Assembly: GCA_035544955.1 (NCBI GenBank)
Contig: DASZZN010000041.1
Span: 62,001-126,000, forward strand
Length of the DNA stretch: 64,000 nucleotides
Direction of reading: 5' to 3'
DNA from: Candidatus Dormiibacterota bacterium
Lineage (GTDB): Bacteria; Chloroflexota; Dormibacteria; CF-121
Below are positions 27,788 through 34,182 of this stretch, piece by piece. Position 1 is the first letter of the stretch; the number at the start of each line of letters is the position of its first letter. The translations under genes were made by a program, and so were the position numbers. A model generated the notes under the pieces. It saw only the letters and a list, made by a program, of their open reading frames with translations. It was not told the origin of the DNA and did no database searches.

Positions 27788-28579
27788 CTAGCCGGTGGGC
27801 TGCCGGCGCAGACCGCCCAGGAACTGGCGGACCTGGGTGGCGGGGTCGTCCGGGGCGCGCGCGATGGCGTCCAGCAGGGCGCTCGCCACGATGACGCCAT
27901 CGGCCTTGCCCTCGAGCGCCTTAAGATGTTCGACGCGCGAGATGCCGAAGCCGACCACGATCGGCAATTTTGTCTGCTTCCGAACTGTGTCGATCAAGGG
28001 CAGCAGGCTAGGATCCAGCTCGGCGCGCGCCCCCGTGACGCCGGTGACGGCAATACAGTAGATGAACCCGGTCGCGGCCCGGCAGGCGGCGGCGATGCCG
28101 CCATCGCTGCTGGTCGGCGCCACGAAGAACACGACATCGACGTGACTGGCATCGGCGGCGCGACGGAGGTCCACGGACTCGGTGGGCGGAAGGTCGGGCA
28201 CGATCAGTCCGTCGACACCCGCCGCAGCGGCCGCTCGGCAGAACCGTTCGAGACCGAAGGCGAGGATCGGATTCACGTAGGTCATGAAAAGCAGCGGGAC
28301 GTCCGTCCTCTTCCGCGCCGCCGTGGCCGCCTCGAGCGCCCGGGCGACCGTCACCCCGCCCTTCAGCGCGACCTGGGAGGCGGCCTGGATGGTGCGGCCG
28401 TCCGCAAGCGGGTCAGAAAACGGAATGCCGAGCTCGATGGCGTCGGCGCCCGACTGGGCCGCGGCCTCGACCAACGATGGCGTGTCGTCGAGGCGTGGAT
28501 AACCGACGGTGAGATAGGCGATCAGCGCAAGGCGTCGCTGGGCGCCGAGCCGGGCGAACATCGCGCCGATGCGGCTCAT
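27788..28579 (-). CDS. trpA: Tryptophan synthase alpha subunit
   Basis: 263 residues. It cleaves indole-3-glycerol phosphate to indole and glyceraldehyde 3-phosphate. The family core [17 protein letters not shown] carries the catalytic glutamate, and [22 protein letters not shown] forms the phosphate-binding region. The start overlaps the trpB stop (ATGA), and the two subunits form the alpha2beta2 complex. Length is typical. Last gene of trpCFBA. Confidence 0.95.
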
Positions 28580-29763
28580 CCGCCGCTCGCGCCCCGGACG
28601 ATATCGAGGTCCTTGTCGCCCCGTCCCGAGAGGTTGACGAGCACGACATCCTCCACGGCCAGCTCGGCCGCCAGCGGCAGCGCGTAGGCGATTGCGTGCG
28701 AGCTCTCCAGCGCCGGGATGATGCCCTCCAGCCGTGACGTTTGGTGGAACGCCTTGAGTGCCTGCTCGTCTGTGACACTCACGTACTCGGCGCGGCGATG
28801 GTCGTGCAGGTAGGCATGCTCCGGCCCAACGCCGGGATAGTCCAACCCGGCGGAGATGGAATGGGTCGCCATCACCTGGCCGTCCTCGTCCTGCAACAGG
28901 TAACTGAAGGAGCCATGCAGCACGCCAGGGCGGCCGCCGACGATCGAGGCCGCGTGCGCCCCGCTGTTGAGCCCACGTCCGGCCGCCTCCACGCCCACCA
29001 GCCGGACGGGGTCATCGACGAAAGGCGAGAAGATCCCGATGGCATTGCTCCCGCCGCCCACGCAGGCCACCACCGCTGTGGGCAAGCGCCCGGTTTCGGT
29101 GAGCATCTGCGCGCGGGCCTCGCGTCCGATCACCGATTGAAACTCGCGGACCATCAACGGGTAGGGGTGCGGCCCCACCGCCGATCCGATCACATAGTGC
29201 GTGGACCGAACGTTGGTCACCCAGTCGCGGATCGCCTCGTTCGTCGCGTCCTTGAGTGTCTTGCTGCCGCTTTCCACCGGCGTCACCGTCGCGCCCAGCA
29301 GCTGCATCTTGTAGACGTTGACCGCCTGGCGCGCCATGTCGTCGACGCCCATGTACACCTCGCACTGAAGGCCGAACTTCGCGCAGACGGTGGCGACCGC
29401 GACGCCGTGCTGCCCGGCCCCGGTTTCGGCGATGATCCGGCGCTTGCCCATCCGGCGGGCGAGGAGCACCTGCCCCACCGCGTTGTTGATCTTGTGCGCC
29501 CCGGTGTGGCAGAGATCCTCGCGCTTGAACCAGATCTCCGCCCCACCGGCCTGCTTGGTGAGCCGGTCGGCGCGATACACGGGCGTGGGTCGGCCGCTGA
29601 ACGTCCGCGAGAGGTACGCAAACTCGTTCCGAAAGCCCTCGTCTTTGAGCGCCGCATCGAACGCCGCCGCCAGCTCCTCGACCGCCGCCATCAGCGTCTC
29701 CGGGATGTACTGGCCGCCGTAGCTCCCGTAGCGGCCGCGCGCATCCGGCGTGATCTGGCTCAC
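28576..29763 (-). CDS. trpB: Tryptophan synthase beta subunit
   Basis: 395 residues. It joins indole and serine with [23 protein letters not shown] contains the PLP lysine, [10 protein letters not shown] the phosphate-binding glycine loop, and the usual start [16 protein letters not shown] is complete. Overlaps trpF (ATGA) and trpA (ATGA). A TrpB1-type sequence with normal length. The long open frame on the opposite strand here is a compositional shadow. Confidence 0.96.
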
Positions 29764-30374
29764 GACCGGTCGACCCGGCGCACCGCCTCGACGAAGGCGC
29801 GCAACTTCGCGTGGTCCTTACGGCCAGGTTCGGCCTCGACGCCGCTGCAGACATCGACCGCCCAGGGATGCAGCTCGCGCACGGCACCATCGACGTTGTC
29901 TGGCGTCAACCCCCCGGAGACGACGACCGGGTACTGGCGTGCCACCGCCTTTGCCTGCGGCCATGCCCAGGCTCGCCCCGTGCCGCCGATGGTGTCCGGT
30001 GTCCAGGTGTCGAACAGGGGATGGTCACCACGCTCGAGCGAGATGCCGGCCAGGTCTTCCCCTTCCTGCACCCGGAAGGCCGGCAGCAGGAGCAGGCCAA
30101 GCGAGCGGTCCTTGTCCGTCAGTGGTCGGTAAACCTGGATCGCGGTCAGGCCACAGGCCTGCGCAACCTTGCCGATCTCCTCGGGCGTTTCATCGATGAA
30201 GACGCCCACCCGCTCGACCCCGGCGGGCACCTGGCCGATGATCGCTTTGATCTCGTCGACCCGAACCTGGCGTTTGCTGCGCGTGAAGATAAATCCGAGC
30301 AGGTCGGCACCGAGCTCGACAGCAAGTTCGACGTCCTCGCTCCGGGTGTTGCCGCAAATCTTGATCTTCGTCAT
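29760..30374 (-). CDS. trpF: Phosphoribosylanthranilate isomerase
   Basis: 204 residues, a TIM barrel. [20 protein letters not shown] has the catalytic cysteine, RVGVFID the mid-barrel motif with the aspartate position nearby, and [12 protein letters not shown] and VDVCSGVE the phosphate-binding loops. It converts phosphoribosyl-anthranilate to the deoxyribulose form. It overlaps both trpC and trpB by 4 bases, so it is translationally coupled. Confidence 0.93.
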
Positions 30375-31162
30375 TCTCCGCTCAGCTCTCGGACTTTCGC
30401 CTCGAGGTCCGGCGCGCGCAGCAACGCTTCGCCGACCAACGCGGCATCGACCCCGATCCGTTGTAACGCTTCGATGTCCGCGCGAGTCTCAATGCCACTC
30501 TCGCTGATCACCGTGCGCCCTTTTGGAATCAGCGGCCGCAAGCGCGCCGTCGTCGCGCTGTCCGTCTTCATCCGAGTCAAATCACGGTTGTTGATCCCGA
30601 TCAGGGATGCCCCCGTGCGCAGCGCGCGCTCAACCTCCTCTTCCGTATGGACTTCAACGACCGCGCGCATGCCCAAGTCGCGAGCCTGGTACTGGAAGTG
30701 GTCGAGCTGACCGTCATCGAGGATCCCAACGATCAGGAGGACGGCATCAGCGCCCATCGCACGGGCCGCGAAGATTTGCACTGAGTCCACGATGAAGTCT
30801 TTGCAAAGGATCGGTAGGGCGACCCCCTCTCGGACCGCCTGTAGATGGTCGATGCTCCCACCAAAGAACTCGGGTTCGGTCAGTACTGACAGCGCGGCTG
30901 CTCCGTTCTCGGCATACCGTTTGGCCAGGCCGACCGGGTCGTAGGGACGCTGCAGCACGCCGCCTGACGGTGACCGCTCCTTGCATTCCGCGATCAAGGC
31001 GACGCCCGGGCCGGTGATGGCATCGCGGAAGTCACGGGGTCGTGGCGCGCTCTGGAGCAGGGCGGCGAGTGCCGCCGCATGCCCGTCGACCTTGAAGCGG
31101 GCATTCGCCCGCCGGCGCGCCTCAACGATGCGTTCGAGGATGGGGGCGGCTTTCGTGGCCAT
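30371..31162 (-). CDS. trpC: Indole-3-glycerol phosphate synthase
   Basis: 263 residues. Motifs: LIAECKERSPSGG (catalytic lysine), LPILCKDFIVD, LLIVGILDD, VVEVHTEEEVERAL, GINNRDLTRMKTD and SESGI, all typical of the TIM-barrel enzyme that closes the indole ring. It begins 22 bases after the aminotransferase gene and overlaps trpF. The trpE, trpG and trpD genes are not in this window. Confidence 0.95.
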   Translation of the reverse strand: MATKAAPILERIVEARRRANARFKVDGHAAALAALLQSAPRPRDFRDAITGPGVALIAECKERSPSGGVLQRPYDPVGLAKRYAENGAAALSVLTEPEFFGGSIDHLQAVREGVALPILCKDFIVDSVQIFAARAMGADAVLLIVGILDDGQLDHFQYQARDLGMRAVVEVHTEEEVERALRTGASLIGINNRDLTRMKTDSATTARLRPLIPKGRTVISESGIETRADIEALQRIGVDAALVGEALLRAPDLEAKVRELSGE

Positions 31163-31184: not shown

Positions 31185-32372
31185 CTAGGCGCGAGCTGCG
31201 GTCTTTTCCAGGACTCCCTTCATCCGCTTGACGCCCTCCTCGATCTGATCGATCGCGTTCGCGTAGGAGAGGCGCAGATAGCCCTTCCCCATCTCGCCGA
31301 ACGTGCTCCCGGCGAGCAGAGCGACCCCGCCCTCGTTCAACATCCGGTCGGCCAGCACGCGTTCGTCCTGACCGGTTTTCGTGATGTTCGGAAACACATA
31401 AAAGGCTCCCAGCGGCTTGTGGCAGCTGACTCCTGGCAAGGCATTGAGGCGATCGACCACCCGGTCACGCCGCCTCTTGAACTCGCCGACCATGGCCTGC
31501 ACCGCGGCATCCGATCGAGGGGAGAGCGCCTCGATCGCCGCCATCTGGGTAAACGCAGCGGCGCACGAGCTGCTATTGATCATCAGCGTCTCGAACTTCT
31601 GCGCCAGCGGCAGCGGTGCCACCGCGAACCCGAGCCGCCAACCGCACATCGCGTAGGCCTTGCTCAATCCGTCCGAGTAGATCGTGCGCTCGAGCATGCC
31701 TGGCACCGTCATGATCGAGGCGTGATGACCGTCGTAGGTGATCTGGCCGTAGACCTCGTCGGTCAGAACGTAGAAGTCATGCCGCATCGCGAGTTCCGCG
31801 ATCTGCTCGAGATCGTGGGTGGACAGCACGCCGCCGGTGGGGTTCTGCGGCGAGTTGATGACTAGCAACTTCGTTCGTGGGGTGATCTTCGATTTGAGCT
31901 CCTCAATGTCGAGCCGGAAGTCGTTGCGCTCTCGCAGAGGAATACCGACCGGGGCAGCGCCGGCAAGCGTGGCGGCCGAGGAATAGATGGCGTAGCCGGG
32001 ATCGGGAACGATGACCTCATCACCTTGGTCGACCAGCGCCAGCATGGTGAAGAGAAGGACGTTCTTCGAGCCGGGCACCATCACCACCTGCTCCGGCTTG
32101 ACCTCGACCTCGTAGGTGCGGCGAATCCAATCGGCAACTGCCTGGCGGGCCGGCATCAGGCCGCCCGCGGGCGTGTAGTGCGTGAAGCCGTCGCGCAGGG
32201 CGCGCTCGGCGGCCTCGACGATGTTGGGCGGTGTTGGGAAATCAGGCTCCCCGATCTCGAGGTGAACGATGCTGCGGCCCTGCGCTTCCAGCTTGCGCGC
32301 CTTGGCCAGCACCTCGAACGCGGTCTCGGTGCCGATCTCCGACATGCGATGCGCGAATTTCATTTCGCTCAT
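31185..32372 (-). CDS. Class I/II pyridoxal-phosphate aminotransferase
   Basis: 395 residues of the aspartate-aminotransferase fold-type I group. HLEIGEPDFPTP at the N-terminus, VINSPQNPTGGV, DEVYGQITYDG and SDGLSKAYAMCGWRLGF (PLP lysine, then the carboxylate-binding arginine region) are all seen. The substrate is uncertain: aspartate, an aromatic amino acid or alanine are possible. Sitting directly before trpC, and overlapped by acyP (ATGA), it may serve aromatic amino-acid synthesis or degradation. Confidence 0.9.
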   Translation of the reverse strand: MSEMKFAHRMSEIGTETAFEVLAKARKLEAQGRSIVHLEIGEPDFPTPPNIVEAAERALRDGFTHYTPAGGLMPARQAVADWIRRTYEVEVKPEQVVMVPGSKNVLLFTMLALVDQGDEVIVPDPGYAIYSSAATLAGAAPVGIPLRERNDFRLDIEELKSKITPRTKLLVINSPQNPTGGVLSTHDLEQIAELAMRHDFYVLTDEVYGQITYDGHHASIMTVPGMLERTIYSDGLSKAYAMCGWRLGFAVAPLPLAQKFETLMINSSSCAAAFTQMAAIEALSPRSDAAVQAMVGEFKRRRDRVVDRLNALPGVSCHKPLGAFYVFPNITKTGQDERVLADRMLNEGGVALLAGSTFGEMGKGYLRLSYANAIDQIEEGVKRMKGVLEKTAARA

Positions 32373-32659
32373 CCTCTCACGCCGAAGGGACCGAGGTCCC
32401 CGCGAAAGGGCAACCAGCTGACGCGCACGTCCTGCACTCTCGCTTGTCGCGGTCCCCTGCGGAGCGCATCGAGCAACCGTTCAAGCGAGGACGCGTCGCC
32501 CTCGGCCTCCACCTCCACCGCGCCATCGTAGCGGTTGCGAACGTACCCCTCGAGGCCGAGCCGGCGGGCGTGTGACTGAGCAAAGTAGCGAAAGCCCACC
32601 CCCTGGACGTCGCCGAGGATCTCCGCCTTGAGGCGGCGCCGCTCTGGTTTACTGGGCAA
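32369..32659 (-). CDS. acyP: Acylphosphatase
   Basis: 96 residues. The signature GDVQGVGFRYFAQSHARRLGLEGYVRNRYDGAVEVEAEG contains the catalytic arginine (VGFR) and asparagine (RNR) of the ferredoxin-like acylphosphatases (residues 16-54), which hydrolyse acyl phosphates. The start is TTG immediately after the TGA of the upstream gene, so it depends on re-initiating ribosomes. Second gene of the operon leading into the trp genes. Confidence 0.88.
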   Translation of the reverse strand: MPSKPERRRLKAEILGDVQGVGFRYFAQSHARRLGLEGYVRNRYDGAVEVEAEGDASSLERLLDALRRGPRQARVQDVRVSWLPFRGDLGPFGVRG

Positions 32660-32923
32660 TCAGGCGTGCGCCAGCGGGCCGGTCGTCACGACGACCGAGA
32701 CGCGCTTGGGCGCATCCGGGATGGCCTGCAGCGTGCGGCGCACCACCGGCAAGTAGGCCTGAACGAGCTGGCGGGCTGACTGTTCGGTGGGGGCGCCGAT
32801 CACCAGGCGCTGGTCATCGCAGTGGCAGCAGGTGGCGGTGCCTTGCCAGAGGTAGTAGGCAGATTCCGGCAGGTTCAGGCTCATGAGGAGCTGAAGCTCC
32901 CGCCAGACTGCACTCCCCTGCAT
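32660..32923 (-). CDS. Small protein resembling DnaA domain I
   Basis: 87 residues, MQGSAVWRELQLLMSLNLPESAYYLWQ... It follows the DnaA N-terminal (domain I, KH-like) pattern: a Trp-containing first helix, a hydrophobic LNLPESAYYLWQGTA segment with Tyr/Trp in place of the usual F-W, then RLVIGAPTEQSARQLVQAYLPVVRRTLQAI like DnaA LxIxVPNxFxxxWLExxYxxxI (comparison by pattern). There are no AAA+ or DNA-binding parts. Extra features are C-C-H-C (32-35). A TAGGAT box 8 bases before the ATG marks this start. The call rests on pattern resemblance alone. Confidence 0.5.
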   Translation of the reverse strand: MQGSAVWRELQLLMSLNLPESAYYLWQGTATCCHCDDQRLVIGAPTEQSARQLVQAYLPVVRRTLQAIPDAPKRVSVVVTTGPLAHA

Positions 32924-32931
32924 TGCACCTA

Positions 32932-32937
32932 ATCCTA
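32932..32937 (-). promoter_or_regulatory. -10 box of the DnaA-N-like/acyP/trp operon
   Basis: TAGGAT on the minus strand, 8 bases before ATG 32923. It shares a 44-base divergent gap with the queG promoter. Confidence 0.45.
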
Positions 32938-32953
32938 CTCCCGCAACCGCACC

Positions 32954-32959
32954 TAAGCT
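32954..32959 (+). promoter_or_regulatory. -10 box of queG, leaderless type
   Basis: TAAGCT, 8 bases before the queG ATG at 32968. The two -10 boxes in this gap are only 16 bases apart on opposite strands, so polymerases would compete. Confidence 0.45.
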
Positions 32960-32967
32960 AGGGTCAA

Positions 32968-34182
32968 ATGTCCCTGACGAGCGAGCTAAAGCACAAGGCC
33001 CGGGCGCTCGGCTTCTGCGCCGTTGGCGTGACCCGGGCGGAGCGGTTTTTCGAGGCCGAAGCCGCCGCCACCAACCGGACCCAACAGGGCCTGATGGACG
33101 GCCTGTCCTGGTGGAGCGAGGCCCGGGCTCATGCCAGCGCCGACCCGCGCCGGGCCACCCCCGCGGCTCGCAGTGTGATCGCCCTGGCTTTTCCCTACCC
33201 CTCCACCTCCGCGGGAGGGCCGGGCCCGCCGGCCCACGCGAGCCGCGCTTCAGTGCGAAGCGAGCGTTTGAGGCGTCCGGGTGGGGGCGGTGGCCCACGC
33301 GGACGGATCGCCGCGTATGCGCTGGGTCGCGACTACCACGAGGTCCTGCTCGAGCGAATGCAGCCGCTGTTGGCGATGCTGCGTGAGCGCGGCCACGTCG
33401 CCAAGACCTACGTCGACCATGGCTGGATGCTGGACCGTGCGGCGGCGGCTCGAGCCGGCGTGGGCTGGCTCGGAAAGAACACCAACCTGCTGATTCCCGG
33501 TGTGGGTTCCAACGTGTTGCTGGCGGAGATCGTCACCTCGGCAGAGCTCGAGCCCGACCAGCCGTTGAAGAAGACCTGCGGCAGCTGCGATGCCTGCATG
33601 CGGATCTGCCCCACGGGTGCACTGATCGAACCTGGTGTGCTCGACAACCGGCGCTGCATCTCCTTCTGGACTATCGAGCACCGCGGCGTCATCCCCATCG
33701 ACATTCGGCCGCTGATCGGCGACTGGATCTTCGGCTGCGACCTCTGCCAGGAGATCTGCCCGGTCAACGTGAGTCCGCGGGCAGCCGCGCCAGATGCCCG
33801 GGCGTTCGAGGCCTTCGGCCCGCTGATCGATGCTCGGCCGCGGCTTGAAGAACTGTTAACGCTCGACGAGGAAAGCTTCCGCGTCCGCTTTCGCAACAGC
33901 GCGGTGTGGCGAACCCGACGGTCTGGACTGCTTCGCAACGTGTCTATCGCGCTGGGCAACATCGCGGATCGCAGCTCGGTCCCCGCGCTGGCGACCGCGC
34001 TCGGCGACGCGGAGCCGCTCGTCCGCGGCCATGCGGCGTGGGCGCTCGGCCGGCTCGGTGGCGCCGCGGCCCGGGCTCACCTGGAACGGGCGATCAGGCG
34101 CGAGACCGACGCCTGGGTGCTGGATGAGTGCGCGCTGGCGCTGCGGGCGTGCGGACCACTCGTCGTCCCGTCAGCGGTTTAA
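32968..34182 (+). CDS. queG: Epoxyqueuosine reductase
   Basis: 404 residues. It carries out the last step of queuosine synthesis in tRNA with cobalamin and two [4Fe-4S] clusters. Cluster cysteines are C204-x2-C207-x2-C210-x3-C214 (CGSCDACMRICP) and C257-x2-C260-x3-C264. YVDHGW (about 148-153) holds the catalytic-aspartate position. The C-terminus (about 320-390) has HEAT-like repeats. Odd: residues 79-111, between FPYPSTS and RIAAYALGRDYH, are a Pro/Gly/Arg-rich insertion not expected in the family. The 3' end overlaps the convergent adenosyltransferase gene by 89 bases. Confidence 0.92.
   Translation: MSLTSELKHKARALGFCAVGVTRAERFFEAEAAATNRTQQGLMDGLSWWSEARAHASADPRRATPAARSVIALAFPYPSTSAGGPGPPAHASRASVRSERLRRPGGGGGPRGRIAAYALGRDYHEVLLERMQPLLAMLRERGHVAKTYVDHGWMLDRAAAARAGVGWLGKNTNLLIPGVGSNVLLAEIVTSAELEPDQPLKKTCGSCDACMRICPTGALIEPGVLDNRRCISFWTIEHRGVIPIDIRPLIGDWIFGCDLCQEICPVNVSPRAAAPDARAFEAFGPLIDARPRLEELLTLDEESFRVRFRNSAVWRTRRSGLLRNVSIALGNIADRSSVPALATALGDAEPLVRGHAAWALGRLGGAAARAHLERAIRRETDAWVLDECALALRACGPLVVPSAV

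Follow-up and report, generated by a model that had tools for sequence, protein, structure and literature searches.

An 87-residue protein resembling one domain of the bacterial replication initiator, encoded ahead of tryptophan genes, raises the question of what such a protein is and what it does there. Its gene lies in a window of 64,000 nucleotides (the whole stretch of DNA analyzed) from a Candidatus Dormiibacterota genome of 3.67 Mb in 52 contigs, whose named relatives belong to the CF_ series of soil Chloroflexi MAGs. A sequence-only reading of this window had described the product as a short protein with the helix and strand pattern of DnaA domain I, without an AAA+ or DNA-binding domain, heading an acyP-trp operon and possibly competing with DnaA for its partners.

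The gene and its operon

The locus comprises the following features.

32660..32923, minus strand: dnaAI, stand-alone paralogue of DnaA domain I (87 aa, ATG start; identified by ORF, homology and fold)
32369..32659, minus strand: acyP, acylphosphatase (Pfam PF00708, E 6e-25), starting right after the dnaAI stop codon
31185..32372, minus strand: class I PLP aminotransferase (aspartate aminotransferase-like)
30371..31162, minus strand: trpC (NCBIfam NF001377, exceeds cut-off)
29760..30374, minus strand: trpF (NCBIfam best match NF002298, under its cut-off)
28576..29763, minus strand: trpB (TIGR00263, exceeds cut-off)
27788..28579, minus strand: trpA (TIGR00262, exceeds cut-off)
32968..34182, plus strand: queG, epoxyqueuosine reductase, the divergent upstream neighbour (TIGR00276, exceeds cut-off)
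32932..32937, minus strand: -10-like box TAGGAT, 8 nt 5' of the domain I gene ATG, conserved in the intergenic alignment
32954..32959, plus strand: -10-like box TAAGCT, 8 nt 5' of the queG ATG, conserved within the genus

The proposed place of the gene at the head of the acyP-trp operon was borne out both in the window and in its relatives, where the order thyX/nudix/pduO/queG (divergent)/dnaAI/acyP/aminotransferase/trpC/trpF/trpB/trpA is the same in members of the family (f1) as far as their contigs extend. The ORF listing alone also allows an upstream GTG start, which would give a protein of 212 aa. Because the position of the ATG or GTG start is conserved in relatives together with a -10 box 6–8 nt ahead of it (the spacing of the TAGGAT-type box in other genera in the intergenic alignment), the 87-aa form is established as the product. 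The spacing of this box from the start codon suggests a leaderless transcript with the domain I gene as the first gene of the operon. In the short intergenic stretch (window 32924–32967), each of the two divergent genes is preceded by a -10-like box at 8 nt from its ATG, and leaderless transcription is thus suggested to be a habit of the lineage.

The neighbouring QueG contains a Gly/Pro/Arg-rich stretch of ∼35 residues (window 33200–33310, plus strand), the DNA of which resembles additional spacer sequence that separates acyP from the domain I gene at another locus (L036). We rejected a dispersed repeat as the source of this insertion, as its exact motif was found only once in the genome.

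Distribution and selection

In a survey of 110 genomes of the class, the domain I gene was confined to family f1, to which the window belongs (18 genomes, four genera), and was present in 17 of these 18 genomes, spanning all four genera. Sixteen copies are intact; the broken one, in genome G001 (L044/L017), is split by a stop/frameshift, for which assembly error and real loss are both possible. The eighteenth genome (G009) lacks the gene, but its assembly is incomplete and the neighbouring aminotransferase is missing as well (best match 34% identity), so this absence is uninformative. Against the window copy, dN/dS was mostly 0.03–0.14 within the genus and 0.12–0.31 to other genera, and an alignment of 16 proteins has 46 invariant columns. 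The 87-aa ORF is a real gene under strong purifying selection.

No further free-standing relative was found in a sample of 400 genomes from the phylum, where the short fragments that matched did so weakly. An origin from a phage or plasmid was rejected: tblastn against phages and plasmids gave no noteworthy match, viral_contigs contained no relative, and a BFVD fold search matched only larger phage replication proteins with weak E-values.

Relationship to DnaA domain I

The protein stops at residue 87 without the AAA+ domain III and DNA-binding domain IV of a DnaA initiator, as had been read from the sequence, and DnaA_N (PF11638) is its sole match in a Pfam scan. This profile search thus returned the family that had been predicted, but at 14.6 bits (E 0.027) the match falls under the gathering score of 24.6, and the matches found in 12 of the 16 family members were likewise weak (best E 0.014). 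Stronger evidence came from models built from the class itself: an HMM of class DnaA domain I scored 17 of 17 family members at 20–33 bits, whereas none of 20,000 shuffles exceeded 13.9, and hhalign against the class DnaA domain I alignment gave a probability of 96.8% (E 2.2e-10, 81 columns). When the single sequence was searched against six-frame whole genomes, DnaA N-termini were the next matches in most class genomes, with a best E of 6.8e-7 and 6e-4 for the DnaA of the same genome. To the latter the protein aligns over 80 residues ungapped with 20 identities (25%) and a BLOSUM62 score of 78 (shuffled mean -70, maximum 8). Searched by sequence, the PDB yielded chance matches only.

The secondary structure consists of helices at 3–17, 20–29 and 47–65 and strands at 31–35, 39–44 and 74–79. 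The AlphaFold2 (AF2) model (pLDDT 87, pTM 0.76), made from a shallow alignment of 16 close sequences, has the KH-like order alpha1-alpha2-beta1-beta2-alpha3-beta3 expected of domain I; the sequence evidence is independent of this model. Foldseek against the PDB returned DnaA domains I (B. subtilis, E. coli, H. pylori) as the best five matches, followed by DciA, and superposition on B. subtilis 4TPS gave a TM-score of about 0.75 and an rmsd of 2.0.

In a tree, the small proteins form one clade beside the class DnaAs, with a stem branch as long as 3.7 changes per column; the clade falls next to the DnaA of sister family f2, a placement made unreliable by this very long branch, and by score the nearest relatives are the class's own DnaAs. 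We conclude that the 87-aa protein is a free-standing, highly diverged relative of DnaA domain I.

Surfaces of the protein

The protein was mapped onto E. coli DnaA, with the E. coli and B. subtilis residues serving as yardsticks and the functional residues taken from PMC5448010. The E. coli dimer patch (L5, W6, Q8, C9, L10) corresponds to V6, W7, E9, L10 and Q11, and the partner face (E21, W25, N44, F46, D49, W50) to A22, W26, T46, Q48, R51 and Q52. The E. coli DnaB/DiaA contact positions E21 (helix 2), F46 and W50 are therefore all replaced, as is the neighbouring D49, and the replacing residues A22, Q48, R51 and Q52 are invariant in the family and differ from the DnaA of the same genomes. 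Contacts of the E. coli type are not universal in DnaA, however, as class DnaAs lack E21 and F46, and H. pylori lacks F46 (PMC5448010).

Compared with the class's own DnaAs, the protein departs at positions that the latter hold firmly: the consensus residues L48, A49, D51, W52, R56 and E63, each at least 91% conserved, are Q48, S49, R51, Q52, A56 and R63, invariant or nearly so, with charge reversals at D51R and E63R. Common to the small protein and DnaA are W7 (E. coli W6), L14, L18, W26, P45 and L65; helix 1 is otherwise much altered (A10L, E12L, E13L, R15S, F16L, Q17N). Because the fold and the helix-1 tryptophan are kept while a different helix-3 surface has been fixed, the residue pattern argues for a dedicated partner and against a mere copy of the surface by which DnaA binds.

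Comparison with known systems

With DnaA domain I (PF11638; B. subtilis 4TPS, E. coli 2E0G, H. pylori 2WP0) the protein shares the order of the fold, a similar predicted structure and both the W6-type and W25-type tryptophans. It differs in being free-standing, in scoring under the Pfam cut-off, and in its other invariant helix-3 residues, including D51R and E63R. The helicase loader DciA (DUF721, PF05258) also has a KH-like, domain I-like fold, although the fold match is weaker; identity with DciA was rejected, as the protein has no PF05258 match and the genome has a separate DciA. SirA, HobA, DiaA and YfdR are small regulators that bind DnaA domain I and may share a way of working with this protein, but they are not domain I themselves, whereas here the regulator would be domain I.

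DnaA_N modules detached from the AAA+ engine also occur fused to replication-type proteins, in Chloroflexota (L095, L097, L102, L103) and in a phage (A0A6J5SN45, annotated 'DnaA N-terminal domain containing protein'). These modules sit within proteins longer than 250 aa, while here the domain makes up the entire protein. Derivation from the fused Chloroflexota modules was considered and set aside, as all except L103 score below class DnaA. Fused versions of DnaA domain I are thus present in Chloroflexota and phages, but in the literature searched (open-licence papers only), we found no report of a free-standing one.

Two of the fused cases have features of their own. In the 598-aa frame of L103 (genome G412), residues ∼375–580 form an apparent C-terminal tandem pair of DnaA domains I, the first recognized by eye. 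The second matches both Pfam DnaA_N (46.9 bits) and, slightly under cut-off, DciA (22.4 bits), linking the folds. L097 and L098 (family f8) carry an N-terminal DnaA domain I on a protein of ∼560 aa; L097 has no other Pfam match and no recognised AAA+ domain, and so may be a replication protein of an uncharacterised kind.

Discussion

Elsewhere in the same genome are a complete DnaA with its own domain I, DnaB and DciA, the last (G000:C29:214405) about 3.8 kb from full-length DnaA. Our preferred reading, held tentatively and at somewhat less than an even chance, is that the 87-aa protein is a small modulator that influences replication initiation in trans by binding the cell's own DnaA domain I. 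Domain I dimers of Actinomycetes are weak (micromolar). Domain I serves DnaA as its hub for partner binding, it can dimerise and bind DnaB simultaneously, and in E. coli its helix 1 with W6 makes the dimer (PMC5448010); in vivo, initiation is blocked when free domain I is overexpressed (PMC13270200). The 87-aa protein would bind with the helix-1 face that still has Trp7, or with a different face at which domains I meet, and binding would change how DnaA molecules touch each other or how the helicase is handed over at oriC. The helix-3 face of the protein, not being DnaA-like, would make a separate, strictly conserved contact, and expression of the protein would follow that of the anabolic operon. 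The least certain step of this model is the partner. Folding, and not dimerisation, may be what preserves W7, and the very long branch leading to the family is compatible with a wholly new role. The fuller form of the model, in which a regulator derived from the initiator's own domain pairs with DnaA domain I and ties the rate of initiation to expression of the tryptophan/anabolic operon, seems unlikely to us. The tie to tryptophan synthesis has gene order as its one source, and we know of no counterpart to the linkage with trp genes in replication control.

The protein could instead have been recruited away from replication, using an old interaction fold to partner or regulate one of the products of its operon (the acylphosphatase, the aminotransferase or the Trp enzymes), which we regard as possible, if somewhat unlikely. 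The gene order, strictly kept in every family member for which there is sequence, would fit this, as would the position of the gene first in the operon with acyP gapless behind it in the window, and its strong divergence from DnaA. The aminotransferase adjoins acyP in sister family f2 too, and by-eye inspection ahead of acyP found no domain I ORF but, at most loci, a different, larger one; the pair thus occurs without the domain I gene. However, synteny conserved inside one family is weak functional evidence, and to our knowledge DnaA domain I has no precedent in metabolism.

The sequence-only reading had proposed competition with DnaA. In this decoy model the free domain I would occupy DnaB, a DiaA-like protein or DciA and so lower initiation. 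The fold and homology match, and the role of domain I as DnaA's partner hub (PMC5448010), are what such a decoy would exploit, but a mimic would be expected to keep the equivalents of E21, F46, D49 and W50, and their replacement by family-invariant residues weakens the model enough that we find it doubtful. We infer that contact with DnaA, by the W7 face or another, fits better than competition for DnaB or DiaA.

The protein might also be a positive factor in helicase loading or at the orisome, joining DnaA and DciA as a third adaptor with a domain I/KH-like fold that helps to recruit DnaB. In favour of this, the helicase loader DciA ranks directly behind DnaA domain I among the fold matches, and the helix-3 face is strictly conserved. 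With an ordinary DciA already in the genome, and sister families of the class managing without the extra protein, this is improbable. Finally, although the split copy in G001 would fit a decaying fragment or chance ORF, that reading is ruled out for practical purposes by the low dN/dS within the genus, the invariant columns and the conserved start and -10 box.

Domain I is the handle by which the bacterial initiator is regulated in a taxon-specific way. If our reading of the 87-aa protein as a modulator of initiation is true, this naturally free and conserved domain I would be a built-in regulator akin to the overexpressed domain I that blocks initiation, with an invariant non-DnaA face that points to a further partner, and it may offer a compact reagent for probing domain I-domain I contacts.
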